Shown here piece by piece: positions 18,555 to 35,105 of a stretch of 64,000 bases of DNA (positions are counted from its first letter, which is position 1; every line of letters starts with the position of its first letter). The notes under the pieces were generated by a model that ran no database searches, was not told where the DNA came from, and saw nothing but the letters and a program-made list of their open reading frames with translations. The stretch comes from a virus, in the IMG/VR virus record IMGVR_UViG_3300028840_002702, positions 1-64,000 of that record, one strand, 5' to 3'. The translations under genes and the position numbers were made by a program.

Positions 18555-19055
18555 ATGGAAAAATATGGAAAGACATTGTGGCTATGTGGTTTACCATGTT
18601 CCGGAAAAACTACATTAGGCGATGCTTTAAAAAAGAAATATTTGACAAACGCAATAAGATTAGATGGTGATCATGTTAGAGAAGGTTTATGCTCAGGATT
18701 AGGTTTTTCTGATGAAGGTCGAATGGAAAATATTAGAAGATGTGCCGAAATTGCCGAGATATTAAATAACCAAGGATTTGATGTAATTTGTACGTTTATA
18801 ACACCTCAATATTCACATCATAAGCTTTTACGTTCTCTTATTACTAGAATTAAATTAATTCATATTGATACTCCTGTAAAAATTTGTGAAGAAAGAGATA
18901 TTAAAGGTATGTGGGCAAAAGCTAAACAGGGAAAAATTAAAGGTTTTACTGGATATGATTCATGTTTTGAAATTCCCAATGCTGATTTACGTATAGATAC
19001 AACACAATCGATCGAAAAATGTGTTAAAGAAATTTTTAAAATATATGAAGGCTAA
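18555..19055 (+). CDS. cysC: adenylylsulfate (APS) kinase, CysC-like, 166 aa
   Basis: Phosphorylates adenosine 5'-phosphosulfate to PAPS, the sulfate donor. Motifs follow the CysC family closely: P-loop GLPCSGKTT (~12-20), LDGDHVREGLCSGLGFS, ENIRRCAEIAEIL, CTFITPQ, then KGMWAKAKQGKIKGFTGYDS and a final DLRIDT. One substitution is visible: the P-loop has Cys where many family members have Ser or Gly. Length is slightly below the usual ~200 aa, mainly at the ends. RBS AAGAGG precedes the ATG. A putative sulfotransferase gene at 23321 would be the natural consumer of PAPS. No sulfate adenylyltransferase is in the window. Confidence 0.85.
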   Translation: MEKYGKTLWLCGLPCSGKTTLGDALKKKYLTNAIRLDGDHVREGLCSGLGFSDEGRMENIRRCAEIAEILNNQGFDVICTFITPQYSHHKLLRSLITRIKLIHIDTPVKICEERDIKGMWAKAKQGKIKGFTGYDSCFEIPNADLRIDTTQSIEKCVKEIFKIYEG

Positions 19056-19057
19056 AA

Positions 19058-19639
19058 ATGAAAAAATATACAATTAAATTAGCAAATAAAAATGGAGAGA
19101 TGTCACAAGACTCCATGCATGCTAATGATGAAAATGAATTACGTATGCTTGCAAAAATGCAGGGTATGGAACTTGTAGAAATTATGGATGAACAGGATTT
19201 AACTTTTGAAAATGTAGCTAATGTTAAATTAGATGAAAATCTTCTCGATGAAAATGGTAAACTTAAACCAATGACCATCGAACAACAAGCTATGGCTGAA
19301 TTAGCAGCTGAAACTAATCCTGAACTTGCAGCTCAGCTTCCACCTGAAATGCGTCCTATGCAACGTGATTCTCAAGGAAATTTAATATCACCACCTCCAC
19401 CACAAGTTACAGTTGCATCGAAAAAAGAAAAAGCAACTTTTTATACTGACAAAACAACTGGTATAGAGTTTAAATTTGTTGGTGATACTGTCTATCGTAA
19501 AGATTGGATTGAAGCTGATACCGATGATTTCAAAATCATTAGAAAAAAATCTAGTAGACAAATTCCAAATGAAGAAATTATTGTTTTTAAACACGATTGG
19601 ATTGAAATAGAAGAAGAAAGCGGAGACGAAGATGAGTAA
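19058..19639 (+). CDS. hypothetical acidic protein, 193 aa
   Basis: I do not recognise this protein. Opens MKKYTIKLANKNGEMSQD with a short beta-like N-terminal domain (~1-50). This is followed by an acidic linker, a Pro-rich stretch (SPPPPQVTV, ~110-120) and a C-terminal domain ending in Glu/Asp. Overlaps the next glycosyltransferase gene by 8 bases, so it is co-translated with the island. A scaffold or regulator role is possible, but nothing shows it. Confidence 0.5.
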   Translation: MKKYTIKLANKNGEMSQDSMHANDENELRMLAKMQGMELVEIMDEQDLTFENVANVKLDENLLDENGKLKPMTIEQQAMAELAAETNPELAAQLPPEMRPMQRDSQGNLISPPPPQVTVASKKEKATFYTDKTTGIEFKFVGDTVYRKDWIEADTDDFKIIRKKSSRQIPNEEIIVFKHDWIEIEEESGDEDE

Positions 19640-20453
19640 AATTGGCATCGGAATAATTACATGTAACAGAGAAGATTTTTTACAGACTTCATATATGTCT
19701 GTTGCAGTATCTTCTGCTATTCAATTACATGATTGTTTCGTTGTTAATGATGGTGATCCACTTAGTGATGAAACAAGAAACATTATTGGACTAAGTGATG
19801 ATAACCTTATTCAACATAAGAAAAATTGCGGTGTTGCAGTATCTAAAAATAACGCATTAAAACGCATGATGGATAATGGCTGTGATCATTTATTTCTAAT
19901 GGAAGATGATATCAAGTTAACTAATATTTCAACTATTCCAAAATATATTGAAGTTGCAGAAAAGTCTGGTATTCAACATCTTAACTACGGCGGTCATGGA
20001 ATTTATAATAGAACTAAACAAGGTGAAATTGTAACTCGTGCGACTGTTAAAGTTAAAGATAGTGATATTAGTTTAAATCTTTACTATAATATTCTTGGTG
20101 CTTTTTCGTATTATTCAAGAGAAGTAATTGAAAAAGTTGGTTATATGGACGAAACTTTTCATAATGCTATGGAACATGTTGATCATACATATCAGATTAT
20201 TAAAGCAGGATTTCATCCTCCATATTGGTGGTTTGCTGATCTTGCTAATAGCTGGGAATATATCGATGATATTAAACCATTCCATCAAGAAAGTGTAATT
20301 AGAAAAAATCATGATGAGTGGATGGAGAATTATAAAATTGCTTCAGAATATTTTGCAACTAAAAATGGTCACTTTCCAACAGCTGTTCCTGATCCTGGAC
20401 AAGCTGTTGTTGGACAATCACTTAAATTTTTGAGAGATAAATATGGAAATTAA
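19632..20453 (+). CDS. glycosyltransferase, GT2-like, 273 aa
   Basis: N-terminus KIGIGIITCNREDFLQTS, nucleotide-binding VVNDGDP, and acidic metal-binding motif LFLMEDDIKL (~93-102) are the GT-A features of family-2-type glycosyltransferases. Paralogous to the next gene (20443) and to 34398: all share a short ~235-270 residue form, a VGVSKN or VAVSKN helix start and an EDD motif. C-terminal part has aromatic-rich acceptor-type segments (HPPYWWFADLANSWEY). Overlaps its neighbours at both ends by 8-11 bases. Donor and acceptor sugars cannot be told. Confidence 0.7.
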   Translation: MSKIGIGIITCNREDFLQTSYMSVAVSSAIQLHDCFVVNDGDPLSDETRNIIGLSDDNLIQHKKNCGVAVSKNNALKRMMDNGCDHLFLMEDDIKLTNISTIPKYIEVAEKSGIQHLNYGGHGIYNRTKQGEIVTRATVKVKDSDISLNLYYNILGAFSYYSREVIEKVGYMDETFHNAMEHVDHTYQIIKAGFHPPYWWFADLANSWEYIDDIKPFHQESVIRKNHDEWMENYKIASEYFATKNGHFPTAVPDPGQAVVGQSLKFLRDKYGN

Positions 20454-21222
20454 AAGTAAAATTGGTGTTGGAATAATTACTTATAAACGTGAAAAAATGT
20501 TTAATGAAACATTAGACACAATTCCACGCGATAAAGTTCACCATATCGTAGCTGTTAATGACAGCCCTGATGTTAAATATAACTTTGAAGATAAAGATGT
20601 TCAGTATATAGAAAATAAAGTTAATCAAGGTGTTGGTATCTCAAAAAATATTGCTTTGACTAAGCTTATTAATGCTGGATGTACTCATCTTTTTATTATT
20701 GAAGACGACATTCTAATTAAAGATCCAGATGTATTTGAATATTTTATTAAATGTGCAGCAGAATCTGGAATTTGGCATTTGAATTATGGTCATACCGGAT
20801 CAAAACAAATAATTCATAGAAAGAAATATGACGAACAAGAATTGATATTCTATCCAGATCCTCAGGGTGGATTTCAATATTTTCATATCACATTGATTAA
20901 TAAGTTTAAAGGTTTTGATCCAGTGTATAAGAATGCATTTGAACATGCAGATTATACTTATGTGTTAACAAAGGCTGGATTAATGCCACCATTTTGGTGT
21001 TTTCCTTGTCCAGCAGAACCTGAAAATTACATAGAAATTAATGGAGATTATGAAGAATCTACCATTACTGATAAACCTATGTATAAAGAAAATTATAGTA
21101 CGTCGGCACAACACTGGGTTCAAAAACATGGATCTTTTGTCTCGGCAATTCCAAGACCAACTATAAATGATGTTGAAATAAGCCTTAAAAAAATTAAAGA
21201 AATGTATAGCGTGGGAAAATAA
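20443..21222 (+). CDS. glycosyltransferase, GT2-like, 259 aa
   Basis: Paralogue of the preceding gene: SKIGVGIITYKREKMFNETL, IVAVNDSPD, QGVGISKN, and IIEDDILIKD as the acidic metal site. C-terminal PPFWCFPCPAEPENYIEIN aligns with the acceptor-side segment of its neighbour. Starts inside the end of the previous gene (11-base overlap) and is followed after one base by the GT2-GT29 fusion gene, so these three form a tight translational block. Confidence 0.7.
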   Translation: MEIKSKIGVGIITYKREKMFNETLDTIPRDKVHHIVAVNDSPDVKYNFEDKDVQYIENKVNQGVGISKNIALTKLINAGCTHLFIIEDDILIKDPDVFEYFIKCAAESGIWHLNYGHTGSKQIIHRKKYDEQELIFYPDPQGGFQYFHITLINKFKGFDPVYKNAFEHADYTYVLTKAGLMPPFWCFPCPAEPENYIEINGDYEESTITDKPMYKENYSTSAQHWVQKHGSFVSAIPRPTINDVEISLKKIKEMYSVGK

Positions 21223-21223
21223 A

Positions 21224-22684
21224 ATGATTGATTTTTCAAATGTAACATTTATATATCACTATAGAAAAGACTGTGACGAACGTCTTGAAAATTTAAAGAT
21301 TTCACTTGGATATTACAAAGAGCATTTTAAAGATGTTGAAGTAATTTTAGTAGAAGATGATAAAGCATTAACTATTGATAAAGAAAAAGAACTTATGTCT
21401 ATGATTGATAAAGTATTCTTTTTGAAAAATAGTGGTGTTTATGCTCGACCAGCTAGTTATAATGTTGCTGCTAAGTTATCTACTAGACCAATTATTATGA
21501 CTATGGATACTGATGTTATTCTTAAACCTGAATATCTTGAAAAAGCTATTAAACTTCTTGATAATGAAAAAATTGGTATGATTATTCCTTATAATGGCAT
21601 TGTGATTAATACTGATCAAACAATTAAAGATAAGTTTAAAGAAAATGCTAATTATGATATTCTATTAGATTATGTTCCAAAGCAATTTGATATTCTTTAT
21701 AAAGAAGAACATACTCAAATTCAACACAATAGAAGTGTTGGCGGTATTACAATTTTTAAGAAAGACCGTTACAATGATTTTGGTGGTTATAATCCAAACT
21801 TTCTTGGTTGGGGATTTGAAGACAATGAACTTGTTTGCCGTATTAAGAAAATGGGTTATGAAATTGGTCGTATTAATAATAAAGATGCTTGGATTTGGCA
21901 TTTAACTCATCCTGGAACAATTAAAAATAATCATCCATTCTATGATAATAATCAAAAAATTAATAATGCGGTTACTCGAATGAATAAAGAAGAATTGCGT
22001 TTATATATTGATTCTTGGATGAAAAATGCAAGTGCTGAATTTGCTGAAATGATTAAAGGAAAACGTGTTGCAGTTGTTGGTCCAGCACCTCATATTGTTG
22101 GATCTAAACAACGTGAACTTATTGATTCTTATGATATTGTTGTACGTATCAATAAAGCTCTTCCAATTCCAGAACATTTACAAGTTGATATTGGAACAAA
22201 AACTGATCTTCTTTATAATTGTCTTAATACTTGGGATGAATGTGGCGGAGCATATAATATTGATCTTTGGAAAAAAAGTGGAGCTCAATGGGTTATTTGC
22301 CCATATCCACCAATTAAACCATTTGATGTTGATATCAAAAAATTTATAAATCATAATAATAATCGTATTCCATTTAGACATTTTCCAATTGGTCCATATA
22401 ATGAGTTATTTAAAACTTTAGGTACACGACCAAATTCTGGTTATTTGGCAATTCTTGATTTATTAATGTATGATATTGAAGAACTTTATATTACAGGATT
22501 TTCCTTCTTTAAAGGTGGCTATTATCCAGAATATAGACAAAAGAATGAACAACAAGTAATGGACTTTATGTCTAAAGGATGTGGTCACAAACAAGGTCCA
22601 CAGATTGAACATTTTAAAGCTTTAATGAGAAAAGATAGTCGAATTAAAGTTGATGATTATTTAAAGGATATGTTAAATGATTAA
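21224..22684 (+). CDS. two-domain glycosyltransferase: GT2/GT7C-like plus GT29 sialyltransferase-like, 486 aa
   Basis: Residues ~1-265 form a GT-A domain with MTMDTDVIL (~92-100) and a galactosyltransferase-type FGGYNPNFLGWGFEDNE motif (~187-203). Residues ~278-486 match family-29 sialyltransferases: VAVVGPAPHIVGSKQ, then LIDSYDIVVRINKALPIP (L-motif-like), and GTRPNSGYLAILDLL with ELYITGFSFF (S-motif-like). It is probably a bifunctional enzyme that adds two sugars in turn. Paralogue of the C-terminal half of the 711-aa protein at 28802; the two genes share a ~37-base almost identical stretch at the start of the GT29 part (~22052 and ~30307), pointing to recent duplication or gene conversion. 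Confidence 0.7.
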   Translation: MIDFSNVTFIYHYRKDCDERLENLKISLGYYKEHFKDVEVILVEDDKALTIDKEKELMSMIDKVFFLKNSGVYARPASYNVAAKLSTRPIIMTMDTDVILKPEYLEKAIKLLDNEKIGMIIPYNGIVINTDQTIKDKFKENANYDILLDYVPKQFDILYKEEHTQIQHNRSVGGITIFKKDRYNDFGGYNPNFLGWGFEDNELVCRIKKMGYEIGRINNKDAWIWHLTHPGTIKNNHPFYDNNQKINNAVTRMNKEELRLYIDSWMKNASAEFAEMIKGKRVAVVGPAPHIVGSKQRELIDSYDIVVRINKALPIPEHLQVDIGTKTDLLYNCLNTWDECGGAYNIDLWKKSGAQWVICPYPPIKPFDVDIKKFINHNNNRIPFRHFPIGPYNELFKTLGTRPNSGYLAILDLLMYDIEELYITGFSFFKGGYYPEYRQKNEQQVMDFMSKGCGHKQGPQIEHFKALMRKDSRIKVDDYLKDMLND

Positions 22685-23324
22685 AAATACATTAAAGATA
22701 AATATAGATTTATCAACAGCTACCAAATATGATAAACTTATAGGAAATTTAAGTAAAAATATGTATGGAAGAATATGTGAAGCCCCAGCAGTTCATATTC
22801 TTCCAATAATAAAAGATTATATGGGAGATAAATGTAAAGTTTATGTTGAAACTGGATCTTTATTCGGAGGATCTTTAATATTATTAATGCAAGATGAAAC
22901 ACCATGTGAATTTATTGGTATTGATTTATTTGATGGTTATTACGATAAAGATATAGATCCAGTATCAAAATTAACTTTATGTGTAGATGATGTTCATAAA
23001 AATATTGAAAAATATAATAAACATGAACATAAATATACTCTTATTAAAGGAAGTTCATATGATCTAAACACTGTAGAAAAATTTAGAAGTTTAGGAAAAA
23101 GTATTGATCTATTATTTATTGACGGAGATCATTCTGAAATAGGTGTTCTTGGTGATTATAATTCTTATAAGGAATTTGTAAATAAAGACGGATTAATTAT
23201 GTTCGATAATTATGAATCATGTTGGAAAGAAGTAAAACCAACAGTTGATTCAATTGATTTTGAAAATGATGGATTTCAAAAAATAGGTCAATATGGACAA
23301 GCATTAATAGTTAAGAAAAAATGA
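22677..23324 (+). CDS. SAM-dependent methyltransferase-like protein, 215 aa
   Basis: Class I Rossmann pattern: VYVETGSLFGGSLILL (~60-75, glycine-rich loop replaced by a TGSLFGG form), FIGIDLFDGYY, then SIDLLFIDGDHSE and DGLIMFDNYE, as in the Methyltransf_24/TylF-type families where D.DH coordinates a metal. Sits in the carbohydrate island, so O-methylation of a sugar is a reasonable guess. Overlaps both neighbours by a few bases. Confidence 0.6.
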   Translation: MIKNTLKINIDLSTATKYDKLIGNLSKNMYGRICEAPAVHILPIIKDYMGDKCKVYVETGSLFGGSLILLMQDETPCEFIGIDLFDGYYDKDIDPVSKLTLCVDDVHKNIEKYNKHEHKYTLIKGSSYDLNTVEKFRSLGKSIDLLFIDGDHSEIGVLGDYNSYKEFVNKDGLIMFDNYESCWKEVKPTVDSIDFENDGFQKIGQYGQALIVKKK

Positions 23325-24019
23325 GTTATACATTAAAAATATATGGTGAAAGATGTTCTGGTACTAATTATCTTAAAGAGCTTTTAAAGAAAAATATCAA
23401 AGAACAAGTTTATATGCATACAGATAAAAATCATATAGTTAATTATTGGAAACATGCATGTCCTGAAGAAATTAAAAGTACCGAACGTTTTACAGTAAAA
23501 GGCGATAAAATTTTATATATTTTTATCATACGTGAGTTAGATTCATGGTTAAAATCATTTTTCAAATATCAATATCATCTTGTAAAGAAAAAATATTTTA
23601 AACAATTTGTAAAAGATCCATTTGTTGTTAAACATACACATAAAGACTATTTTTCAAATAAGTCTATTAATTTTGATGATGAAGATAAAACAGTTTTTGA
23701 ATTAAGATATTATAAGATAAATTCTTATTTAGAATTTGCAAAAACACACGATTGTATTTTTGTTAATCTTTATTGGTTGCAACAAAATTATAAGAAATTT
23801 TTTGATATAATAAAAGAAAATTTTTCTGATATTAGAATTAATGAAAATATTGTAAATATTGATAAACATACAAAAACAAAAAATTCTATTAAAAATAGAA
23901 CATATAATGATATTGATATAGAAGAAGTAAGAAATTTAATATCAAATCAGACTGATAAAATTATGGAAGATTTTGTAAATAATTTAACTTATAAAATAGA
24001 GAAAAATGGAGAGAAATAA
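23321..24019 (+). CDS. putative PAPS-dependent sulfotransferase-like protein, 232 aa
   Basis: Begins LKIYGERCSGTNYLKELLKK, resembling the 5'-phosphosulfate-binding loop of sulfotransferases (GxxxSGTxxL), and has YIFIIRELDSWLKSFFKY (~67-84), matching the RxxxxWxxS-type 3'-phosphate-binding segment. Pairing with the APS kinase 4.3 kb upstream makes a sulfation role plausible. Other P-loop enzymes remain possible. ATGA overlap with the previous gene and a one-base overlap with the next. Confidence 0.5.
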   Translation: MSYTLKIYGERCSGTNYLKELLKKNIKEQVYMHTDKNHIVNYWKHACPEEIKSTERFTVKGDKILYIFIIRELDSWLKSFFKYQYHLVKKKYFKQFVKDPFVVKHTHKDYFSNKSINFDDEDKTVFELRYYKINSYLEFAKTHDCIFVNLYWLQQNYKKFFDIIKENFSDIRINENIVNIDKHTKTKNSIKNRTYNDIDIEEVRNLISNQTDKIMEDFVNNLTYKIEKNGEK

Positions 24020-25026
24020 TGAAACCAATTATTACATTATTGGGTTATACAGGATCAAATCATTCACATTATTGGCCACAGCTAAGATTTTTTGACGTTT
24101 TTAAACATGCTGGTTATGATGTTGAATGGGTAAATATGAATGAAGTTCGCCAGACAAATCGCCCAAGAATTTATATTACATGGAATCAACCTGCATGTGA
24201 TATAGTCGTTGCAAGAGGTCTTTATAACCATAAGCGTGGAGATGTAATTATTCAGAAATTAACTTCACTTGGAGCTGGTGATGATCATGTTAATTGGGGA
24301 AATGATGCAATGGGTTTCTTCCAAAAATGGTCTTGGAATACTTATAAACGTGTAGAATATTTTTATGATATGGGTGTAAATATTCATGCTTTTGGTTGTA
24401 AAACAGTATCTGAACCATTTCCTGAAAAACATCGTATAGTATCAAAACTTGGTGATAGAGTTCATTGGTTTAATTGGGGTCCTTGTCTTTATGATTATAA
24501 TGAACTTCAAAATATGAAACCAATTATAACTGATTTTAAATATGATATTGGTTATGTTGGAATGAAGTGGGGATCAGTTGGTCGTGGAAATATTGATTCA
24601 TGGGAAACTTATATTGATCCATTAGTAAAAGAATTTTCAAATAATGCTTTAGCTGGTGCTGGAAATCCAATGGGTCAAGTTAGTAATGAAGTTCATAAAG
24701 AAATTTTAACACAGTCTAGATTATGTCCAATTATGCACTGTCCTTCATGGATTGCAGAACAAGGTTGCCAAGATAGAACATATACTGTATTTGCATCTGG
24801 TAGATTTGGTGTTATTGATAATCCAGGAATTTACGAGTTCTTCGATGAAAAAGAAGTTGTATGTGAAACAGATCCGGGTGAATATTTTGAGAAATCAAAA
24901 TACTTTGCTAATAATATAGATGCACAGATTCCTTATATTGAAACATTCCAAAAACGTATTAAGGAAGAGCTTAATTTCTATGTCACATGGCCTAGAATTA
25001 TAGAAAAGGTTTGGAAGGAAAATTAA
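24019..25026 (+). CDS. glycosyltransferase, GT-B fold, CgeB/Glyco_trans_1_2-like, 335 aa
   Basis: N-terminal half (ITLLGYTGSNHSHYWPQLRF) resembles the acceptor Rossmann domain. The C-terminal half carries YDIGYVGMKWGSVGRG and the donor-site segment RTYTVFASGRFGVIDNPGI followed by FFDEKEVVCETD, the usual CgeB-like pattern (an F.S.G...V.D start and an E/D-rich retaining site). Many Trp and His residues. Likely retaining transferase in the island; sugar unknown. Confidence 0.6.
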   Translation: MKPIITLLGYTGSNHSHYWPQLRFFDVFKHAGYDVEWVNMNEVRQTNRPRIYITWNQPACDIVVARGLYNHKRGDVIIQKLTSLGAGDDHVNWGNDAMGFFQKWSWNTYKRVEYFYDMGVNIHAFGCKTVSEPFPEKHRIVSKLGDRVHWFNWGPCLYDYNELQNMKPIITDFKYDIGYVGMKWGSVGRGNIDSWETYIDPLVKEFSNNALAGAGNPMGQVSNEVHKEILTQSRLCPIMHCPSWIAEQGCQDRTYTVFASGRFGVIDNPGIYEFFDEKEVVCETDPGEYFEKSKYFANNIDAQIPYIETFQKRIKEELNFYVTWPRIIEKVWKEN

Positions 25027-25027: not shown

Positions 25028-25837
25028 ATGAGTTTAATAAGTCAAAAAGAATATGATAAACTTCCAAATAAAGAAGATTATACTGCTCTATCAGGTGTTA
25101 TTCCATTAAATAACGAAATAGTTTATATACATAATGACGAAATTATAGTAGATCAAGATACATATCATAACTGTAATTGTATGTCTGTTGCTACTGGTGA
25201 CGAAACATTCGAAGAAGAATTTTCAATGAGAACTTTTCCTCCATCATTAAACGATAATGAATGGTGGAGGATTGGTGAGGATCCAGATCCTATAAAACAA
25301 AAGTTAAAACTACATCTAGGTTGTGGTAATAAACATATTGACGGTTATACAAATATCGATTGTAGATATCAACCAGGTGTAGATAAAATTGATAATGTTC
25401 AATATCTTCGTAGTTATAAAGAATGTAGCATAGATGAAATTTATGCTTGTCATGTTCTTGAACATGTTGGCAGATGGAATTATCTAGATACGCTTAAACG
25501 TTGGTTTAATCTTTTAAAACCTGGTGCTAAACTTTATATTGCAGTTCCTGATTTTGAAGCGATTGCCGAATATTATATCAAAAATAAGAAAAGTCAACAA
25601 GATATTATTGGTCTTCTTTACGGCGGTCAAGATTACGAAGGTAATATTCATACATACTGTTGGGACTTTAAACAACTTTCAATTGATTTAGCTTCTCTTG
25701 GATTTAAAGATATTAAACGTTATGATTGGCGAGAAACTGATCATGCACATATTGACGATTTTTCTCAATGTTACTTGCCTCATATGGACAAAGAAAACGG
25801 AACATTAATGAGTTTAAATGTGGTTGCAACAAAATGA
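25028..25837 (+). CDS. SAM-dependent methyltransferase (Methyltransf_11-like), 269 aa
   Basis: The N-terminal ~95 residues are an unrecognised domain (NNEIVYIHNDEIIVDQDTYH). Then comes a clear class I methyltransferase: KLHLGCGNKHIDGYTNID (~98-115), IDEIYACHVLEHVGRW, LKPGAKLYIAVPDF. The pattern HVLEHV and the short C-terminal extension match the family often found in polysaccharide clusters. The following gene starts inside its stop (ATGA). Confidence 0.75.
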   Translation: MSLISQKEYDKLPNKEDYTALSGVIPLNNEIVYIHNDEIIVDQDTYHNCNCMSVATGDETFEEEFSMRTFPPSLNDNEWWRIGEDPDPIKQKLKLHLGCGNKHIDGYTNIDCRYQPGVDKIDNVQYLRSYKECSIDEIYACHVLEHVGRWNYLDTLKRWFNLLKPGAKLYIAVPDFEAIAEYYIKNKKSQQDIIGLLYGGQDYEGNIHTYCWDFKQLSIDLASLGFKDIKRYDWRETDHAHIDDFSQCYLPHMDKENGTLMSLNVVATK

Positions 25838-26694
25838 TTAGAGTAGCACTTAAAAATTTTTGGAAAACATGTCCAAATGAAAAGTTTGCGATGGATATGT
25901 TGGCACCAATGCAAAATGATTTCGATATTGTTTACGACGAAGAAAATCCTGATATCGAAATCTGCTCTACTTTTGGCACTGAACCTCTTAATCCAAAAAT
26001 TATTAGTGTTTTTTGGGCTATGGAAGGTATCTGGGATATTAAAAAGTTCGATATATCAAAGTATGATTATGCATTTTACTTCTTTCCAGAATCTATGGTC
26101 AATGATCCTAAATATTGTAGAATTAATATGGTTTCACCAGGACTAGTTGGTCCACGAAATATTAATATTAACGAAGTAAAATTAACACATACTAAATTTT
26201 GCAATTTTATTTATAGTCATCCTGTTCCATTTAGAAACGAAATGTGTGGGGTAATATCTCAATATAAACGTGTAGATGCACCCGGATGTTGTATGAATAA
26301 TATGGAACCAATTGGAAAACATAGTGATCCATGGACAAGTAGAAATTCTAGTTCTTGGGTAAATGAAAAATTTGAGTTTCTTAAGCAATATAAATTTACA
26401 ATTGCATGTGAAAATCATAGTCTTCCAGGATATGTTACTGAAAAAATTATTCAACCATTAAATGCAAATAGCATTCCGCTATATTGGGGTAATCCATATA
26501 TCGCTTTAGATTATAATCCAAAAGCTTTTATTAATTATTATGACTTTGGAAATATGATTGATTTTGTCAAAAAAATCAAAGAAGTCGATAATGATAATAA
26601 ATTGTATGAAGCAATGCTACATGAACCAAAAGCATTTCAGCATAATCAACAACGTAGTATAGATCATTGGGCAAAAATTTTGTTATCAGTTTAG
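25834..26694 (+). CDS. alpha-1,3-fucosyltransferase-like (GT10), 286 aa
   Basis: Start at 25834 chosen because its ATGA overlaps the previous stop; an upstream reading has no support. The GT10 signature is nearly complete: FCNFIYSH-type segment, YKRVDAPGCCMNN, KFEFLKQYKFTIACENHS, GYVTEKIIQPLNANSIPLYW (truncated here) and PKAFINYYDF. These residues bind GDP-fucose. It lacks membrane segments, as bacterial GT10 enzymes do. Predicted to transfer fucose onto a glycan such as a GlcNAc residue. Confidence 0.8.
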   Translation: MIRVALKNFWKTCPNEKFAMDMLAPMQNDFDIVYDEENPDIEICSTFGTEPLNPKIISVFWAMEGIWDIKKFDISKYDYAFYFFPESMVNDPKYCRINMVSPGLVGPRNININEVKLTHTKFCNFIYSHPVPFRNEMCGVISQYKRVDAPGCCMNNMEPIGKHSDPWTSRNSSSWVNEKFEFLKQYKFTIACENHSLPGYVTEKIIQPLNANSIPLYWGNPYIALDYNPKAFINYYDFGNMIDFVKKIKEVDNDNKLYEAMLHEPKAFQHNQQRSIDHWAKILLSV

Positions 26695-27558: not shown

Positions 27559-28143
27559 ATGCATGGACATATTTTAATACTCGAAAATAAAGATACTATG
27601 AAAGACAATATTGTTGGTGGTATTTTGGTAGAAATTGGATCTGATAGAGCATCTGGATCTACTAAAGCATTAGCTCAAATGGCTAAAGAATTTGATATGG
27701 ATTTCTATACTGTTGATCCAGACGAAGGTGCGTATGAACGTTCAACAAATATTCTTAAAAATATTGATGAAGATTTTAAAGCTGTACAAGATCTTGGTGA
27801 AAATTTCTTAGATAAATTTGATGGTGAAATTAATTTGATTTATATGGATGCGTTTGATAATGTATTAGAAAATTGGCCACATAAACAAGCAACAATTGAT
27901 ACTTATAAGAAACGTGGTGTTGATCTTAATAATGAAAATTCTTGGAAAATGCATCTAGAGGCATGTCAAAATGCGATTGATAAAATTCCAGTTGGATGCT
28001 ATATTTGTTTTGATGATACAGTTCAACGTGGCAATGAATGGGAAGGCAAAGGTAAATTAGCAATTCCATTCTTATTAAAAAATGGTTTTGATATTATTGA
28101 TAATGACTATAATAATTGTCTAATACTTCAGAAGGAAAAATAA
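27559..28143 (+). CDS. methyltransferase-like protein (Methyltransf_24 type), 194 aa
   Basis: Start at 27559 follows AAGGAAAA by 8 bases and lies just after the preceding stop; a longer reading would overlap it. GGILVEIGSDRASGSTKAL replaces the usual glycine-rich SAM loop, followed by FYTVDPDEGAYERST, LIYMDAFDN and GCYICFDDT, the acidic ending of the metal-dependent O-methyltransferase pattern. It could also be a metal-dependent hydroxylase-like relative. Stop overlaps the next ATG (TAATG). Confidence 0.5.
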   Translation: MHGHILILENKDTMKDNIVGGILVEIGSDRASGSTKALAQMAKEFDMDFYTVDPDEGAYERSTNILKNIDEDFKAVQDLGENFLDKFDGEINLIYMDAFDNVLENWPHKQATIDTYKKRGVDLNNENSWKMHLEACQNAIDKIPVGCYICFDDTVQRGNEWEGKGKLAIPFLLKNGFDIIDNDYNNCLILQKEK

Positions 28144-28805
28144 TGGCCCATAAAATTTTTATTCCAATTAAGGCGGAATCGCAAAGAGTACCTGGAAAAA
28201 ATTTCAGAGATTTTCATGGTAAACCTTTATGGAAACATACATTAGATAAATTAGTAGATTATGATGTATACGTAGATACAGATTCTGGTGTTTTAGTAAG
28301 AGAACTTGAAGAAACATACGAAAATGTAACTGTAATTCCAAGACGTCAAATGCATATAGGAAATGATGTTCCTGTTAATTGGTTGCTTGGTTATTTTGCA
28401 AATGAATGTCATGAAGACGATATCGTAGCACAAGTTCACGTAACATCTCCATTCTTAAAAGCTGAAACGCTTGATAAAATATTTAAAATGTTTGAAGGTG
28501 GTGGAGTTGATTCAGTAGCAACTGTTGATGTTATTCAAGCAAGATGTTGGCGAACAGAAGCACCGAAAAGATTTATTCCAATTAACCATGATCCAGAGAT
28601 TCTTGAACAAACACAAGATATTAATCCTGTTTATGTTGAGAATTCTTTAGTTTATGCGTTTCATGTTAGTCATTTTTTGAATACGCGAAATAGATTTAGT
28701 GGAGCTTATAAGCTCTTTTATGAAACACAATTTCCTGAAAGTTTAGATATTGATACAGAAGCAGATTGGGATTTGTGTGTTAAAATGGGAGAAATTTACA
28801 AATGA
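28143..28805 (+). CDS. CMP-sialic-acid synthetase-like cytidylyltransferase (NeuA family), 220 aa
   Basis: Starts with KIFIPIKAESQRVPGKNFRD and FHGKPLWKHTLDKL, matching the P-loop-like RSGSKGIPGKN and GKPL motifs of acylneuraminate and KDO cytidylyltransferases. Also YVDTDSG, VAQVHVTSPFLKAETLDKIF (ligand and metal site), VYVENSLVYAF and DIDTEADWDL at the end, all in family order. It would activate a nonulosonic acid as CMP-sugar, the donor for the two GT29-like domains in the island. NeuB- and NeuC-like genes are not in the window, so the sugar may come from the host or from genes outside. Confidence 0.75.
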   Translation: MAHKIFIPIKAESQRVPGKNFRDFHGKPLWKHTLDKLVDYDVYVDTDSGVLVRELEETYENVTVIPRRQMHIGNDVPVNWLLGYFANECHEDDIVAQVHVTSPFLKAETLDKIFKMFEGGGVDSVATVDVIQARCWRTEAPKRFIPINHDPEILEQTQDINPVYVENSLVYAFHVSHFLNTRNRFSGAYKLFYETQFPESLDIDTEADWDLCVKMGEIYK

Positions 28806-30937
28806 ATAATGGTAATGGATTGAAATTTATTTTTGGCATTAAAGCTTTAGATCCATATAAGACAAGAAGATTAATAGAACAATTTGAACAAACACGTAGT
28901 AAAAATACTAATTGGCTTCTTATTGTAGCATATAATAGATTTGATTCAGAAGTTTGTGAAATTGTTAGTATGCTTGATAATCTAACAAAAGTTGAAACAA
29001 TCGCTCTAAATTGTATTAATAATCCAGGTCAAATGACTAATAAGATTTTTAAAGAAGCCAGTAAATATGAATTTGATTATGGTTTTATTGCAAGTGATTC
29101 TGTTCAATTTAAAAAAGAAGGCTGGGATGGTCTTTATTATAATGCATCAAATTATACAAATTATGACTGCTTATATTTCTATGATCAAGAAAACCCAGTT
29201 TGTAATGAGACTCCTCGTAATTGGAGCCCTGTTATTAATAGATGTCAATTAAAGCATGTTAGAGATACATTTTTTACTTTTACAAAATATTCTCTTAACA
29301 AAGTTGGTTATTATGATTTAGAAAATATGCCAATATTAGCAGCACACGATTTCTTTTTAAGAGCTGCTGATCTAAGTTTCAACGATAAATATGATCCTTA
29401 TGATGCATTTAATAGTGAGCAATACGTAAAAGCTGATCCAGAATTTCCACCATTTGCAGGCGTTGATTCACCAGAACTTAAGAGAATGAGTCAACCACGT
29501 ACATCACATAGAGTCGAATTTAAAAGTATTTATGATAAACTTTTCGATTGTGATAAGATTGTAACATTTGTTATGTGTCTTAAAGAACGATCTGATCGTG
29601 CAATGAAATCTATTAAAAGTGTTGTAACAGCGGCAAATTTAAAATATATGGATTTTATCATTGTTGAAGATAAAAGTCTTGATCAATTAGATCTTTCGAA
29701 GTTTAAATATGTTGATAAAATCAAACATTATGTTGTTAACACTGGTGATTCTTGGAATAGATCAAAGCTTTTAAATTTTGGATTTAAACGTGCAACAACA
29801 CCATTAATCGCAAGTTGGGATTGTGACATTCTATTTCCTAAAGCTTTTGGGAAAAAATTAAAAGAAGTTTGTGATCCACTTGATTTTGAAAGAAATATTA
29901 TGAAAATTAATTCAAAAGAATCTGCAGAATGTTTCGTTAATGGTACTCTTTATGAAAAGGGAGCGATTAGAGGCGGAATGTGGTTATATGATAAAAATGT
30001 TCTTGAATCAGTTGGTGGATATGACGAAGCATTTGTAGAATGGGGTCATGAAGAAATGGATATTCATGAACGTCTTGAACGAGCTCGTCAAACTAATATT
30101 ATTGAAATGAAAGATATTAATATAGATTTAATTCTTACTCATATTTCTCATAGTGATTCTTTACGTGGTGATTGTGTTAATAATCATAGAAATCATGATA
30201 TTCGCTGTGCTCATAAACATTATGGAATTACAAATGTTAATCATAATGGTTGGGGTCAACTTCCAATTTTAAGAAAAAGAAGTACTGATACAGCGTATGC
30301 TAATTTTCTTAAAGGAAAACGTGTTGCAGTTGTTGGTCCAGCACCTTCTATTATTGGATCTAAACAAAGAAAATTAATAGATTCTTATGATGTAGTTGTT
30401 CGTATAAATAAAGCAATGCCAGTTCCAAAGAATCTTTATAAAGATACTGGCGGTCGATGTGATGTACTTTATAATTGTATGAATACAAGTGAAGAATGTG
30501 GTGGAACTATTGATTTTATCGCATTAAAAAAAGGTAAAACAAAATGGATTGCTTGTCCTTATCCAAAAGCTGGTGAATTTGAAAAAGATGTAACTAAATT
30601 TGAACAAATAAATCCCAAGTTTCCATTTCATGTAATTGATACTGAAAGATACTTTGCTGTTGAAAATTATATTGGAACACGTCCAAATACAGGAATTGGT
30701 ACAATTCTTGACTTACTTGATCACGACATTGAAGAACTTTATATAACTGGATTTACATTTTTCCAAGGTGGTTATCATGAACATTACCGTGGTTATACTG
30801 AAGAACATGTAATGGATTTTATGGCTCAATATGGAAAACACGATCAAGAACCTCAGAAGAATTTAATTAAAGAACTATATTTGTATGATCCTCGTATTAA
30901 TGTAGATGAAACACTTAAAGAAATTTTGGAGAGATAA
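28802..30937 (+). CDS. three-part glycosyltransferase ending in a GT29 sialyltransferase-like domain, 711 aa
   Basis: Residues ~1-240 form an unassigned N-terminal domain with a GT-A look (FIFGIKALDPYKTRRLIEQF). Residues ~250-480 are GT2/GT7C-like: FVMCLKERSDRAMKSIKS, LIASWDCDILFP (acidic motif) and GGYDEAFVEWGHEEMDIHER (truncated). Residues ~503-711 are GT29-like: VAVVGPAPSIIGSKQRK, DSYDVVVRINKAMPVP, GTRPNTGIGTILDLL, ELYITGFTFFQGGYH. Paralogue of the 486-aa fusion at 21224. Overlaps the cytidylyltransferase stop by 4 bases (ATGA), so donor synthesis and transfer are probably co-translated. Confidence 0.7.
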   Translation: MNNGNGLKFIFGIKALDPYKTRRLIEQFEQTRSKNTNWLLIVAYNRFDSEVCEIVSMLDNLTKVETIALNCINNPGQMTNKIFKEASKYEFDYGFIASDSVQFKKEGWDGLYYNASNYTNYDCLYFYDQENPVCNETPRNWSPVINRCQLKHVRDTFFTFTKYSLNKVGYYDLENMPILAAHDFFLRAADLSFNDKYDPYDAFNSEQYVKADPEFPPFAGVDSPELKRMSQPRTSHRVEFKSIYDKLFDCDKIVTFVMCLKERSDRAMKSIKSVVTAANLKYMDFIIVEDKSLDQLDLSKFKYVDKIKHYVVNTGDSWNRSKLLNFGFKRATTPLIASWDCDILFPKAFGKKLKEVCDPLDFERNIMKINSKESAECFVNGTLYEKGAIRGGMWLYDKNVLESVGGYDEAFVEWGHEEMDIHERLERARQTNIIEMKDINIDLILTHISHSDSLRGDCVNNHRNHDIRCAHKHYGITNVNHNGWGQLPILRKRSTDTAYANFLKGKRVAVVGPAPSIIGSKQRKLIDSYDVVVRINKAMPVPKNLYKDTGGRCDVLYNCMNTSEECGGTIDFIALKKGKTKWIACPYPKAGEFEKDVTKFEQINPKFPFHVIDTERYFAVENYIGTRPNTGIGTILDLLDHDIEELYITGFTFFQGGYHEHYRGYTEEHVMDFMAQYGKHDQEPQKNLIKELYLYDPRINVDETLKEILER

Positions 30938-30938
30938 T

Positions 30939-31685
30939 ATGCCAATACGTTCCGAAAATTATAATGCTCGTCAAGATATCAACTTATGGCAACAAATTCC
31001 ATCTACGGTAGTAACTGAAATATATACACAATTTACTAGAGTAAATGGAATCGTATTTGATTTAGAACATGGTTGTTTTAACGATGAAACTTTATATTCG
31101 TGTATTCAAGTTGCATGTCTTGGTAAAAAACGTCCAATAGTTAGACTTCCTTATTTAGATAAAGGTAGATTAAGAATGTGTTTAGATGCTGGTGTTGGTG
31201 GTGTAATTCTATCAACAGTTGAAACTAAAAAACAAGCACAAAAATTTCTTGATGAATGTCTTTATTCTAGAAAACGAGGTCAGGGACTTGTTCGTCAAAA
31301 TATGTGGAATGATGCTATGATAGCAGATGGTAGAAATTATATTGACAATCATTTACAAATTATTCCACAGATCGAAACTAAGAAAGGTGTAGAAAATATT
31401 GACAAAATTTATGATAAGCGATTTACTTATTATATGGTTGGCCCTTATGATCTATCCGCAAGTTATGGATGTGCTGGTAATTTTGAAGCTCCAGAATTTC
31501 AAAATGCAATGTCTAAATTGGGACAAAAATTAGGTGAGGATGGTAAATTAGCTTTCCATCTTGTTAAAGATATAACTAAATCAAAAGTATATGCTAAGGC
31601 TGATTGTGGAATGCTAGCACTTGGCATGGATACAATTTTTTTAAATGAAGGAATGGAACAATGTATAAAGATAGTATCGCGGTAA
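30939..31685 (+). CDS. HpcH/HpaI-type aldolase, 248 aa
   Basis: Start at 30939 is the Met just past the previous stop; the overlapping longer frame is unlikely. Family motifs: VNGIVFDLEHGCFND (metal and substrate side), RPIVRLPYLDKGRL, IIPQIETKKGVENIDKI and YYMVGPYDLSASYG. These class II pyruvate aldolases cleave or form 4-hydroxy-2-oxo acids. In a glycan island it may supply or recycle a keto-sugar acid. The next gene, a 2-hydroxyacid dehydrogenase, starts inside its 3' end. Confidence 0.75.
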   Translation: MPIRSENYNARQDINLWQQIPSTVVTEIYTQFTRVNGIVFDLEHGCFNDETLYSCIQVACLGKKRPIVRLPYLDKGRLRMCLDAGVGGVILSTVETKKQAQKFLDECLYSRKRGQGLVRQNMWNDAMIADGRNYIDNHLQIIPQIETKKGVENIDKIYDKRFTYYMVGPYDLSASYGCAGNFEAPEFQNAMSKLGQKLGEDGKLAFHLVKDITKSKVYAKADCGMLALGMDTIFLNEGMEQCIKIVSR

Positions 31686-32575
31686 CATCAAAAACATTAT
31701 CAAATCAAGAAGGATTTGTTAAATGGCTTAAAAGACATTTTAAAGAAGTTAAATTAAATCAAAGTGATAAATTACGTGATGAAAAACTTATAGAGTTTTT
31801 ATCTGATGTAGATTATGTTGTACTTGGTACTGAACCATTCCATAAAGATATTATCAAAAATACTAAAAATTTAAAGGCGGTCTTTAAATATGGAGTTGGT
31901 ATTGATAACATCGATTTCTTTGTTGCTGGTAAAAATAATCTTCCTATTTATTATAAGAAAGGTACAAATAGTGATGCTGTTACTGAAATTGCTTTAAGTT
32001 ATATTATTCAATTATTGAGAAATCAACATATTAGTTTTGCCGCTGCCCGAAATGGTTGTTGGGATAAACAAAAGGGTAAAGAACTATCTGAATCAATTAT
32101 TGGAATTATCGGTTTTGGTAATATTGGTCAATGTCTAAATACTAAACTTACTAGTCTTTTATGTTATGATATCTTATGGCATGATAAAAACAATCATAAA
32201 AATTCAATTTGTAACAAAGATTTAGAATTTGTTTTAAGTAACGCTGATGTTATTTCAATTCATATTGATAATGAAGATAGAATGAATACTAATTTCTTTG
32301 ACGATGAAAAATTAAGTCTTCTTAAAGATGGTGCATATATTGTCAATACAGCACGTGGTTCTATAATGGATTATGATGCGCTTGAAAAACATCTTCCAAG
32401 ACTTGGAGGAGTTGCATTAGACGTTTATCCTTATGAACCTAATATTCCTGAATTTTTATTGGATTCTGACAAAGTTATTTTATCATGTCATATTTGCGGA
32501 AGTTCAGAACAAGGTTTGAAGAATGGTGAAGAGTTTATTAAAGAAAGTATTAAAACTCATATGGAGAAAAAATAA
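31661..32575 (+). CDS. D-isomer-specific 2-hydroxyacid dehydrogenase, 304 aa
   Basis: Has the NAD-binding loop IGIIGFGNIGQCL (~143-155), the substrate-domain AVFKYGVGIDNID and YYKKGTNSDAVTEIALSYII segments, the catalytic Arg in IVNTARGSIMD, and His in LSCHICGSS. Glu lies in the usual YPYEPNIPEF context. It would interconvert a 2-oxo acid and a D-2-hydroxy acid. Overlaps the aldolase gene by 25 bases, so the two products probably act in one pathway. Confidence 0.8.
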   Translation: MYKDSIAVTSKTLSNQEGFVKWLKRHFKEVKLNQSDKLRDEKLIEFLSDVDYVVLGTEPFHKDIIKNTKNLKAVFKYGVGIDNIDFFVAGKNNLPIYYKKGTNSDAVTEIALSYIIQLLRNQHISFAAARNGCWDKQKGKELSESIIGIIGFGNIGQCLNTKLTSLLCYDILWHDKNNHKNSICNKDLEFVLSNADVISIHIDNEDRMNTNFFDDEKLSLLKDGAYIVNTARGSIMDYDALEKHLPRLGGVALDVYPYEPNIPEFLLDSDKVILSCHICGSSEQGLKNGEEFIKESIKTHMEKK

Positions 32576-32850
32576 TGAAGTGTTATAAATATACTGCAAT
32601 GGATGCTCAAGGAAAAGAGAAAAGTGGAAATATAGATGCTGAGAATGAAAATGATGCTAATGCTAAATTGAAAGAAATCGGTCTTTTTCCTACAAGTATT
32701 TCTAAAATAAAAACACCTAAGCAACCATCTGAAGAAGATAAAAAATCTACTATAGAACAAATTTTTGACAATTCCCTTATCAGAGAACCTGAAAAAATCA
32801 AAATTAAACTTTTCGGGTTAATTACAGTACTAACAATAGAGAAAAACTAA
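32575..32850 (+). CDS. small protein resembling the GspF/PilC N-terminal cytoplasmic domain start, 91 aa
   Basis: First ~45 residues (YKYTAMDAQGKEKSGNIDAE, then NDANAKLKEIGLFPTSISKI) follow the pattern seen at the N-terminus of type II secretion/type IV pilus GspF/PilC proteins (Y.A.D..G....G..EA....A...L...GL.P). The membrane and helical core of that family is absent; the rest is a charged linker and a short hydrophobic end (IKIKLFGLITVLTIEKN). Role in the phage unknown. Start codon overlaps the preceding stop (TAATG). Confidence 0.5.
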   Translation: MKCYKYTAMDAQGKEKSGNIDAENENDANAKLKEIGLFPTSISKIKTPKQPSEEDKKSTIEQIFDNSLIREPEKIKIKLFGLITVLTIEKN

Positions 32851-32852
32851 AT

Positions 32853-33125
32853 ATGGAATGGATTAAAGAAGACGTAGAAAAAATATCTGAGATGTTTGAT
32901 ATTACCAAAGAAGAAGTTATGGATTTAGAATGTTTTAGTCTAGACCTTACAGATGATGAAATGGAACAACTAACAGAAGATATTCGCGATCTTGAATATG
33001 ATGTTGAAGAAGGTAAAGGAACGTGCAAATTATGTTTTGATAATCCATCTTCATTTCTTACCGCAACAGAAGCTTATGATGAATTCTATGGTTATGAACC
33101 ATCTGATATTTCATTTGACGAATAA
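32853..33125 (+). CDS. hypothetical acidic protein, 90 aa
   Basis: I do not recognise this protein. Strongly acidic (DITKEEVMDLECFSLDLTDD) with helical segments, one CKLC motif around residue 58 and an aromatic-acidic C-terminus. Closely spaced (2 bases) after the previous gene. Followed by an 83-base gap holding a weaker early-type promoter. Confidence 0.45.
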   Translation: MEWIKEDVEKISEMFDITKEEVMDLECFSLDLTDDEMEQLTEDIRDLEYDVEEGKGTCKLCFDNPSSFLTATEAYDEFYGYEPSDISFDE

Positions 33126-33149
33126 AAATATTAAAAAGTTTTGTGAAGA

Positions 33150-33178
33150 GTTTATTTTTACGAGATTTGGTTTATCTA
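33150..33178 (+). promoter_or_regulatory. weaker early-type promoter (GTTTAT, 17 nt, TATCTA)
   Basis: GTTTAT at 33150-33155, 17 bases, TATCTA at 33173-33178, in the only sizeable gap of this part of the island, followed by AGGAG RBS before the gene at 33209. Both hexamers depart from the better promoters of the window. Confidence 0.4.
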
Positions 33179-33208
33179 TAAACAATTAAAATATTTTTAG
33201 GAGTCTTT

Positions 33209-34396
33209 ATGCTTTCACAATATAATGTTATAACACACCCCGCTGATAACGGAGGTTGTGGACATTACCGAATGAAATTTCCAGCTTGGGCAGCACAATC
33301 TTTGCGTAAAGATATTAGCATAGTTGAATCACCCAAGCTAATTCATATCCCAGGATTTTATCAAGACGTTAGAATGGTACGCATTCAGCGCCAATTAGCA
33401 GATTATTCATTTAAATTTGTACTTGAGTTTCTAAAGCCATTATCCGAAAAAATTGGATTTTGGCTTTCTTATGAAATTGATGATGTTGTTGGACGTCATG
33501 ATATTCCACGCTATAATTCCGGTTGGCAAACATTTCAGAATGATAAACTCATGATGAATATGAAATATATTTTGCAACTCTGCGATGTAGTTACTGTTAC
33601 AACACCGGAACTTGGTAATTATTATCATAGAAAATTTGGTGTTGATAAAAATAATATCATAGTAATTCCAAACTATCTTCCAAGATGGTGGATTGGTGAA
33701 AGTTATGATTTGGAAAAAATCAAAGCTAAAATTCAATCTGAACATAAACCTAGAATTGGATTTATTAGTTCATCTACTCATTTTGATCTATTTAATAGAA
33801 ATGATGGTGTTGATGATTTTACACATATCGTAGATTTTATTAGAGATACTGTTGATAAATATCGGTGGGTATTTATCGGTGGGGTTCCACAACAACTAAA
33901 AGATTTAGTTGAAGATAAAAAGATTGAATTTAATCCCGGTTTTGATATTTTGAATTATACGCGAATTGTTAATAGTATGAAGTTTGACTTAATGGTTGCT
34001 CCTCTTCAAGATAATGTTTTTAATAGATGTAAATCTAATATCAAATTTATTGAAATGGCCGCACTTGGTATTCCTTGTATTGTTCAAGATTTAACTCCAT
34101 ACAAAAAATATACTGATCTTCGCTTTACTGATGCAAATGATCTTCAAGATAAGATTGATTTTGTATTATCTAATAAAGAAAGATATCTTGACCTCGTTAA
34201 AAATAATCGTGACATCATTGATAATGGTGATTCTAACGCACCAAAAGGATGGTGGCTCGAAAATAATATGGATGTTTGGTTCCAACAATTTTGTGTTAAT
34301 CAACGTTCATTACGTTTTGATTTAAGAGAAATTAATTTCGAAGAAATAACTCCGGAAAATAAAAATAACGCCGGTGAAATAACGTTTGAGGTTTAA
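33209..34396 (+). CDS. glycosyltransferase, GT4-like (GT-B fold), 395 aa
   Basis: N-terminal VITHPADNGGCGHYRMKFPA shows the glycine-containing loop of GT-B enzymes. The C-terminal half has PRIGFISSSTHFDLF, YRWVFIGGVPQQL, and the donor-site run VAPLQDNVFNRCKSNIKFIE (truncated) followed by AALGIPCIVQDLTPYK, in the order expected for family-4-type transferases. No membrane segments. Preceded by RBS AGGAGT. Acceptor unknown. Confidence 0.65.
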   Translation: MLSQYNVITHPADNGGCGHYRMKFPAWAAQSLRKDISIVESPKLIHIPGFYQDVRMVRIQRQLADYSFKFVLEFLKPLSEKIGFWLSYEIDDVVGRHDIPRYNSGWQTFQNDKLMMNMKYILQLCDVVTVTTPELGNYYHRKFGVDKNNIIVIPNYLPRWWIGESYDLEKIKAKIQSEHKPRIGFISSSTHFDLFNRNDGVDDFTHIVDFIRDTVDKYRWVFIGGVPQQLKDLVEDKKIEFNPGFDILNYTRIVNSMKFDLMVAPLQDNVFNRCKSNIKFIEMAALGIPCIVQDLTPYKKYTDLRFTDANDLQDKIDFVLSNKERYLDLVKNNRDIIDNGDSNAPKGWWLENNMDVWFQQFCVNQRSLRFDLREINFEEITPENKNNAGEITFEV

Positions 34397-34397
34397 G

Positions 34398-35105
34398 ATG
34401 CAAGATATTTTATGTGGAATTTTAAATTATGGTAGAACCCATAAAGATATGAAAAAAGTACCCAATAAGATAAAGGGTGATGTCGTTATTTGTACCGATA
34501 ATCCTGAATTTTGGGGTAAAAGAGAAACAATTGCAGCTGAAGAATCTGTTGCAGCTAGTAAAAATAAGATTATAGATTTAGCTATTGAACGTGGTTATAA
34601 ATATGTGTTTATTATAGAAGATGACATTATTCCAAAGAATAAAAGTCTTTTTCTTGAATATAAACAAATGATGCAAAAATATGATTTATGTGGTATTATG
34701 TATGGTTATGATACTCCAATGAATAAAGTATTTGGAAAAAGACCTAATGCATCACTTATAATTACTGATCATCAAGGACATATAGTAAATATTAATCGCT
34801 ATCCTTGTTCATCTTTTATTGGCTTAAAAGTTAAACCTGACATGGTTAAATTTGATGAACAACTTTGTATTTTGGAAACAGATTTTTTGTTTATTGATAT
34901 GCATAAAAAGGGTGATCACCCATTTAATGGCTTCTTTTTTGACATATCAAAAAGCTGGGAAAAATTTAAGAAAATTGATGTTAAAAGTATTCGTAAGAAA
35001 AATCTTAATATGATTAATAAAGACCGTGAAGTAAGAAAAAAATGCGAAATTAAGCCAGATTTTTCTGCTGATGCAGTCCTCAAATATATGAACGAACACA
35101 GGTAA
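34398..35105 (+). CDS. glycosyltransferase, GT2-like, 235 aa
   Basis: Third short GT2-like paralogue: VAASKNKIIDLAIERGYKYV (truncated), then FIIEDDIIPKN as acidic metal site, parallel to the proteins at 19632 and 20443. C-terminal part is Lys-rich. Start at 34398 lies directly after the preceding stop. Last member of the carbohydrate island before the chaperonin gene. Confidence 0.65.
   Translation: MQDILCGILNYGRTHKDMKKVPNKIKGDVVICTDNPEFWGKRETIAAEESVAASKNKIIDLAIERGYKYVFIIEDDIIPKNKSLFLEYKQMMQKYDLCGIMYGYDTPMNKVFGKRPNASLIITDHQGHIVNINRYPCSSFIGLKVKPDMVKFDEQLCILETDFLFIDMHKKGDHPFNGFFFDISKSWEKFKKIDVKSIRKKNLNMINKDREVRKKCEIKPDFSADAVLKYMNEHR

Follow-up and report, generated by a model that had tools for sequence, protein, structure and literature searches.

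The window analysed here, bases 1–64000 of the 82,744-base linear IMG/VR virus record IMGVR_UViG_3300028840_002702, carries a glycan island of about 20 genes on one strand (18555–35105; I01–I20, Table 1). In the reading that we regard as best, and to which we give an even chance, this island would enable a T4-like phage, in the course of infection, to synthesize an acidic glycan and couple it to an acceptor, with a cytidine monophosphate (CMP)-activated ulosonate core formed independently of NeuB and a phage structural protein as the more likely acceptor. Three or four of the island genes belong to a module that is conserved in many other, largely T4-like, phages. More tentatively, and a little short of even, we propose a pathway that is specific to viruses and common to many T4-like phages: an HpaI-type aldolase would replace the phosphoenolpyruvate (PEP)-dependent synthase of the NeuB/KdsA family and yield a new kind of ulosonic acid, a dedicated cytidylyltransferase would activate this acid, and enzymes of glycosyltransferase (GT) family 29, relatives of animal sialyltransferases, would transfer it.

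The module is marked by a subfamily of CMP-sugar synthetase-type cytidylyltransferases represented by I13, in which Lys, His and Thr take the place of Arg12, Gln104 and Arg165 (numbering of the meningococcal synthetase of CMP-N-acetylneuraminic acid, CMP-Neu5Ac). Across all viral loci fetched, 34 viral genes were of this Lys12/His104/Thr165 type, a number that includes the same virus from several samples. Within 6 kb of these genes, an HpaI aldolase was encoded in 32 of 34 cases (directly downstream of the cytidylyltransferase in 22), a SIS-type sugar isomerase in 26 of 34 (assigned from a weak Pfam SIS match below cut-off) and NeuB in 0 of 34. GT29 was nearby in all 34, a figure which is biased because 80 loci had been fetched by GT29; the HpaI figure is free of this bias, as is the result for the loci fetched by the I13 profile alone (L179–L195; 11 groups at 90% identity), where both GT29 and the HpaI aldolase were nearby in 17/17. 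The usual order GT29 → cytidylyltransferase → HpaI → SIS-type sugar isomerase was repeated across viral loci. Scattered genes in relatives, named by an earlier, sequence-only reading of this DNA as a sign against a dedicated island, were not the pattern found: many other phages keep the core, with its genes in the same order.

NeuB was absent from whole records carrying the Lys-type module (up to 201 kb) and, together with GDP-mannose dehydratase, from the record of the window phage, in agreement with the sequence-only reading, which had seen neither NeuB nor a pathway to guanosine diphosphate (GDP)-fucose. This record is probably a fragment of a phage genome, therefore absences from it hold for the sequence present. 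Among bacterial relatives of I13, NeuB was encoded near 14/52 genes of the Arg12 type and HpaI near 0/52; for those of the Lys12 type, HpaI was nearby in 3/17 and NeuB in 0/17. I13-type and dehydrogenase genes stood close together in most bacterial loci, and on a marine Acuticoccus plasmid an HpaI aldolase, a cytidylyltransferase, a PGDH and a HAD hydrolase are encoded consecutively. Two genes inside the island that had been overlooked earlier, I15 (HpaI-type aldolase) and I16 (2-hydroxyacid dehydrogenase), bear on the missing NeuB. Compared with the HpaI structure 4b5s, I15 retains the active-site motifs FDLEH (D-x-EH), VR, QIET and GPYDLS (GP-x-DLS), and by family match and these motifs it is predicted to be a class II pyruvate aldolase of the HpaI type.

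I13 had been described as a CMP-sialate-synthetase-like enzyme. Membership of the CTP_transf_3 family was recovered and both metal-binding Asp residues (Asp209 and Asp211) are retained, but the Arg12/Gln104/Arg165 set is lost. The name CMP-sialate synthetase was rejected because these three substrate or nucleotide residues differ. The best NCBIfam match, PseF (TIGR03584, 1.9e-12), scored 47 bits against a cut-off of 205.7 and thus does not place I13 in PseF. PseF likewise has a Thr at the Arg165 position, which would suit a nonulosonate other than Neu5Ac. For the meningococcal enzyme, Arg165 was proposed to bind the Neu5Ac carboxylate by a salt bridge (PMC2901514); as this residue is replaced in I13, Neu5Ac itself is an unlikely substrate. 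Since I13 is devoid of all three residues and its clade is tied to HpaI and never to NeuB, the predicted product is better called a CMP-ulosonate than an activated sialic acid. Besides I13 and the Lys-type sequences of phages, this clade (support 0.90) contained a single contig from the bin of an archaeal metagenome-assembled genome (MAG); deeper nodes were not resolved. Identity of I13 to viral-contig proteins was 42–47% among the best 17 matches of the I13 profile. Its closest relative (54%) is encoded on the archaeally binned contig L099 (9.9 kb, Altiarchaeales MAG), which also carries HpaI, a dehydrogenase, an I06-like methyltransferase, a sulfotransferase-like protein and a homing-endonuclease-like gene, and is probably a mis-binned phage contig.

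Both GT29-like domains of the sequence-only reading were confirmed. They form the C-terminal halves of I05 and I14, are 50% identical to each other, and scored 28.6 and 24.5 bits, respectively, against the Pfam Glyco_transf_29 cut-off of 23, with the match covering the motif-L stretch only. A two-sequence profile of both domains matched mammalian ST3Gal1 (2wnb) in the PDB at 3e-5 across motifs L and S, followed by ST6GalNAc2. Scans of the sequence collections with single proteins (I14, I13, I07) or with the two-sequence GT29 profile retrieved no relatives; only the wider profiles A4 and A5 did so. With the wider GT29 profile, 284 matching stretches turned up in viral contigs, and the 80 best were retained. 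In an alignment of 83 phage relatives, I14 residues D527, R534, G631 and H680 agreed with 92–98% of the sequences, and the Asp and Arg of motif L and the His of motif VS were each at least 95% conserved (motif-VS His, 98%). Like the window proteins, 24/107 GT29 proteins had more than 150 additional residues at the N-terminus. From family membership, transfer of a CMP-activated sugar is predicted for both window domains.

The set of SIS isomerase, aldolase, HAD phosphatase, cytidylyltransferase and CMP-sugar transferase parallels the pathways to 3-deoxy-D-manno-octulosonic acid (Kdo) and to nonulosonates, with HpaI at the KdsA/NeuB position. In the proposed pathway, I15 would add pyruvate, or hydroxypyruvate possibly supplied by the dehydrogenase I16, to an aldehyde sugar and so form an ulosonic acid without NeuB; I13 would then convert this acid to its CMP-activated form. 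The GT29 domains of I05 and I14 would transfer this sugar, coupled to the GT2/GT7C domains of the same proteins, and the remaining transferases would build the chain. The GT10 enzymes may add a GDP-sugar, probably fucose, from a host-made donor; the methyltransferases would cap the chain, and the adenosine 5′-phosphosulfate (APS) kinase I01 could supply 3′-phosphoadenosine 5′-phosphosulfate (PAPS) to the candidate sulfotransferase I07.

For the acceptor, a phage structural protein in the cytoplasm is given a probability of about one half. All 20 island proteins are free of transmembrane (strongly hydrophobic) segments, and no lipid-carrier initiating transferase, flippase or polymerase was found among them; therefore a cytoplasmic virion protein is a more likely acceptor than a self-made lipid-linked polysaccharide. 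This is in line with the relatives of I03/I04 in mycobacteriophage Myrna and with the capsid and tail-tube glycans reported for mycobacteriophages (Freeman 2023, as cited in PMC12619734). Several points weigh against the pathway proposed here. I14 sits between I13 and I15 in the window, which departs from the usual order; a dehydrogenase is close to only 6/34 viral Lys-type copies; and no counterpart of the SIS isomerase seen in other phages is encoded on the record of the window phage, itself a fragment. With Thr at the position of the carboxylate-binding Arg165, a carboxylated sugar is only a putative substrate of I13. The structure model of the GT29 protein I05 is of low confidence (predicted local distance difference test, pLDDT, 42), although its top PDB matches are sialyltransferases (ST3Gal1, ST8SiaIII and ST6GalNAc2).

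Remodelling of the host surface (lipopolysaccharide (LPS) or capsule) during infection, for instance by masking of receptors against competing phages or by altered grazer recognition, is a real if clearly weaker possibility. A similar role was proposed for cyanophage LPS gene clusters, and a similar series of genes, for epimerases, glycosyltransferases, methyltransferases and fucosyltransferases, is found in the T4-like cyanophage S-SCSM1, where the authors interpreted it as cell wall or LPS genes (PMC9602691). Timing would fit as well, the island being collinear with the early/middle-type genes gp47, gp46 and ribonucleotide reductase (RNR): two tandem TATAAATA late-promoter-like sites (15089–15133, strand −) precede the opposite-strand structural operon, and none lies just upstream of the first island gene. 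As the motif as a whole showed no enrichment over chance, this timing test is suggestive only. In the absence of a flippase, polymerase, initiating transferase or any membrane protein from the island, a host-surface role would depend on lipid-linked intermediates of the host.

That the transferases glycosylate phage DNA instead of a protein or the envelope is very improbable. The phage does encode a C5-cytosine methylase (48938–50224), ThyX and a ThyA-like protein, and I04 matches a TET-associated glycosyltransferase family (0.017) and the T4-type DNA glucosyltransferase PHROG 842 (0.0056), but both matches are weak and stand beside far stronger ones to PHROG 2456; no TET family turned up in the proteins scanned, and no DNA-modification role is known for CMP-ulosonate, GT10 or PAPS. 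It is likewise improbable, if slightly less so, that I15 and I16 are enzymes of ordinary central metabolism (pyruvate or serine related) placed in the island by chance, with I13 using a host-made nonulosonate. Aldolases of the HpaI type and 2-hydroxyacid dehydrogenases occur commonly in catabolism, and the window alone cannot decide the matter; the linkage of the aldolase to viral Lys-type genes, the consecutive genes on the bacterial plasmid and the pairing of I13-type and dehydrogenase genes in bacteria all argue for a joint pathway.

The island can indeed be regarded as dedicated to a glycan, its donor-making enzymes fitting its transferases, whereas the description of its product as sialylated, fucosylated and sulfated needs qualification: the predicted product is an unusual acidic glycan, and sialylated is too specific. 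For fucosylation, one of two proposed GT10 proteins is solid (I10, 55.8 bits against a cut-off of 23.9) and the other falls just short (I11, 21.5 bits), and the donor pathway is not present. For sulfation, the APS kinase was verified by Pfam and by the NCBIfam equivalog-domain model, but the sulfotransferase I07 could not be confirmed. No family match for I07 was obtained in Pfam, NCBIfam, PHROG or the PDB, the sulfotransferase models PF13469 and PF00685 matched nowhere in the record, phmmer gave no link to three other sulfotransferase-like proteins, and the structure model (pLDDT 39) was too low to use. Motifs read from the sequence were a GERCSGTNYL resembling the phosphosulfate-binding (PSB) motif and an IIRELDSWLKS resembling the 3′-phosphate-binding (3′PB) motif; GERCSGTNYL and FIIRELDSWLKS are the sole hint of a sulfotransferase. 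APS kinase was found in none of 43 related records; therefore the shared module does not include sulfation, which is particular to the window phage among those compared and is itself only half supported. The other transferases (GT2-, GT7C-, GT1- and GT4-type) and the three methyltransferases (I06, I09 and I12) were borne out by profile.

The island starts 51 nucleotides (nt) after gp46 and ends 4 nt before a GroES-like gene. As the sequence-only reading stated, nearly all genes of this run touch or overlap: 19 of the 21 junctions from I01 to RNR were within 25 nt, the two exceptions measuring 44 and 83 nt. Four start codons in the island were corrected by reading, and the start of I12 was taken from the translation. 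Library matches to a gp55-type late sigma factor, a baseplate wedge protein, a gp43-type polymerase and tail fibres identify the phage as T4-like; the polymerase is nearest to those of marine cyanomyoviruses (about 30% identity). Of the 11 records of 100 kb or more that carry GT29, 10 encode the T4 capsid protein Gp23. The record had no close nucleotide relatives among 50,697 phage records. No Rfam RNA was found in it, and scans for sigma-70 promoters and terminators gave results no better than shuffles. Besides the methylase, ThyX (52324–52941), the second ThyA-like protein (54441–55175) and a macro-domain protein (52972–53589) are encoded by the same phage. I17 (32575–32850) resembles, by eye, the small N-terminal domain of the type II secretion protein GspF.

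Relatives of the window RNR are encoded in 75 viral loci, and gp47/gp46 homologues sit upstream of RNR in related records. In five of the RNR-based relatives (L030, L032, L038, L060 and L066), gp47 and gp46 are directly followed by RNR without island genes, and one other (L017/L084, RNR 61–64% identical) has glycan genes of its own upstream of RNR, namely those for an I03 relative, a GT7C-GT10 fusion, PIG-L, aminotransferase, RmlD-like and GT8 proteins. The site upstream of RNR therefore looks like a place of glycan-island gain and loss. The GT7C-GT10 fusion of L017 (252–1844) combines in a different way domains that the window has in fused form or side by side, and the RNR of L017 (10001–13207; open reading frame of 1068 amino acids) is seemingly interrupted by an in-frame intein near residue 92–96 of the window enzyme.

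Table 1 Genes of the glycan island and its flanks in the window
Feature	Position	Strand	Basis
Upstream flank: gp55-like late sigma, gp47, gp46	15178..18503	+	PHROG 234 1.5e-32 (sigma); gp47/gp46 by reading of 15610-18503
I01 APS kinase (PAPS = sulfate donor)	18555..19055	+	Pfam APS_kinase 4.2e-42; NCBIfam TIGR00455 148.3 bits, cut-off 138.7
I02 small protein, no assigned function	19058..19639	+	No Pfam or PHROG match
I03 GT2-like phage glycosyltransferase, paralogue of I04	19632..20453	+	PHROG 2456 1.5e-28
I04 GT2-like phage glycosyltransferase, paralogue of I03	20443..21222	+	PHROG 2456 2.3e-28; 37% identity to I03
I05 GT7C/GT2 domain fused to C-terminal GT29 domain	21224..22684	+	Pfam Glyco_transf_7C 2.7e-13, Glyco_transf_29 1.2e-6
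I06 methyltransferase (Methyltransf_24 / CmcI-like)	22677..23324	+	Pfam 6.3e-12
I07 candidate sulfotransferase	23321..24019	+	Motifs only
I08 CgeB/GT1-like glycosyltransferase	24019..25026	+	Pfam Glyco_trans_1_2 1.1e-4, just below cut-off
I09 methyltransferase	25028..25837	+	Pfam Methyltransf_23 2.2e-4
I10 GT10 fucosyltransferase-family protein	25834..26694	+	Pfam 5.9e-15; FucT 5zoi 6.5e-20; FUT9 5.2e-6
I11 GT10-like protein	26739..27557	+	Pfam 2e-4, below cut-off (21.5 vs 23.9 bits)
I12 methyltransferase	27559..28143	+	Pfam Methyltransf_24 0.0019
I13 CMP-sugar synthetase-family cytidylyltransferase, Lys12/His104/Thr165 phage subfamily	28143..28805	+	Pfam CTP_transf_3 9.2e-15
I14 GT2/GT7C domains fused to C-terminal GT29 domain	28802..30937	+	Pfam Glyco_transf_29 2.2e-5
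I15 HpaI-type pyruvate aldolase (predicted)	30939..31685	+	Pfam HpcH_HpaI 1e-14; NCBIfam HpaI 8e-27; structure 4b5s 9.4e-19
I16 D-isomer 2-hydroxyacid dehydrogenase (PGDH-like)	31661..32575	+	Pfam 2-Hacid_dh_C 1.1e-31
I17 and I18, two small proteins, no assigned function	32575..33125	+	No match above cut-off
I19 GT4-type glycosyltransferase	33209..34396	+	Pfam 2.2e-5; PHROG 7162 7.9e-24
I20 GT2-like protein, distant I03/I04 paralogue	34398..35105	+	PHROG 2456 3.3e-5; 24% identity
Downstream flank: GroES-like protein and ribonucleotide reductase	35110..37819	+	Names by reading

To our knowledge, the sialic-acid, pseudaminate, legionaminate and Kdo pathways described so far all rely on a synthase of the NeuB or KdsA type, which depends on PEP. 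GT29 is best known from animals. In phages it has barely been noted: phage TayeBlu has one sialyltransferase annotation, and outside phages a coccolithovirus review mentions glycosyltransferase family 29. Neither GT29 with an HpaI aldolase in phages nor a NeuB-free GT29/cytidylyltransferase/HpaI module was described in the open-access literature searched. If the proposal is true, aldolase, CMP-transferase and GT29 would together constitute a new route to CMP-activated acidic sugars, which would explain how phages without NeuB could make sialic-acid-like glycans and would place GT29 in a common phage type; the island genes are concrete candidates for distinguishing virion glycosylation from host-surface change.

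The domains of the window have sialyl motif L, a motif-S-like PNTG region and the motif-VS His in common with eukaryotic GT29 enzymes (ST3Gal1, ST8SiaIII), but differ in that motif VS is H-x4-Q instead of the canonical H-x4-E, in their fusion to GT2/GT7C and in being encoded by a phage. With the bacterial nonulosonate pathways (NeuB-NeuA, PseI-PseF, LegI-LegF) the window shares the CMP-sugar synthetase fold of I13, but it has an HpaI-type aldolase in the neighbourhood instead of a NeuB-family synthase, and Arg12/Gln104/Arg165 are replaced. The sequence-only reading correctly saw that this phage exceeds the one or two glycan genes that are usual, but large phage glycan islands are already known: islands of this size occur in T4-like cyanophages (S-SCSM1, P-SSM2), where a large same-strand run of glycosyltransferases, methyltransferases and fucosyltransferases is found as in the window, and a change of the host envelope is the usual reading (PMC9602691). 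The S-SCSM1 run differs from the window in its many nucleotide-sugar epimerases, and none of its genes is annotated as GT29, a cytidylyltransferase, an HpaI aldolase or an APS kinase. A window-like cluster is present in the uncultured huge phage LR756508 (484 kb; L096, 2562–13804), where four GT29-type genes, NeuB, GDP-mannose dehydratase, a GDP-fucose-synthase-like epimerase, methyltransferases and a sulfotransferase-like protein stand side by side, unannotated in the deposited record; LR756508 uses NeuB, its proteins share little identity with those of the window, and the sulfotransferase-like call is motif-only there too. Members of the I03/I04 family are present in lambdoid phages and in Myrna, which has few glycan genes and no ulosonate module in the stretch viewed, but shares a transferase of this family with the window.

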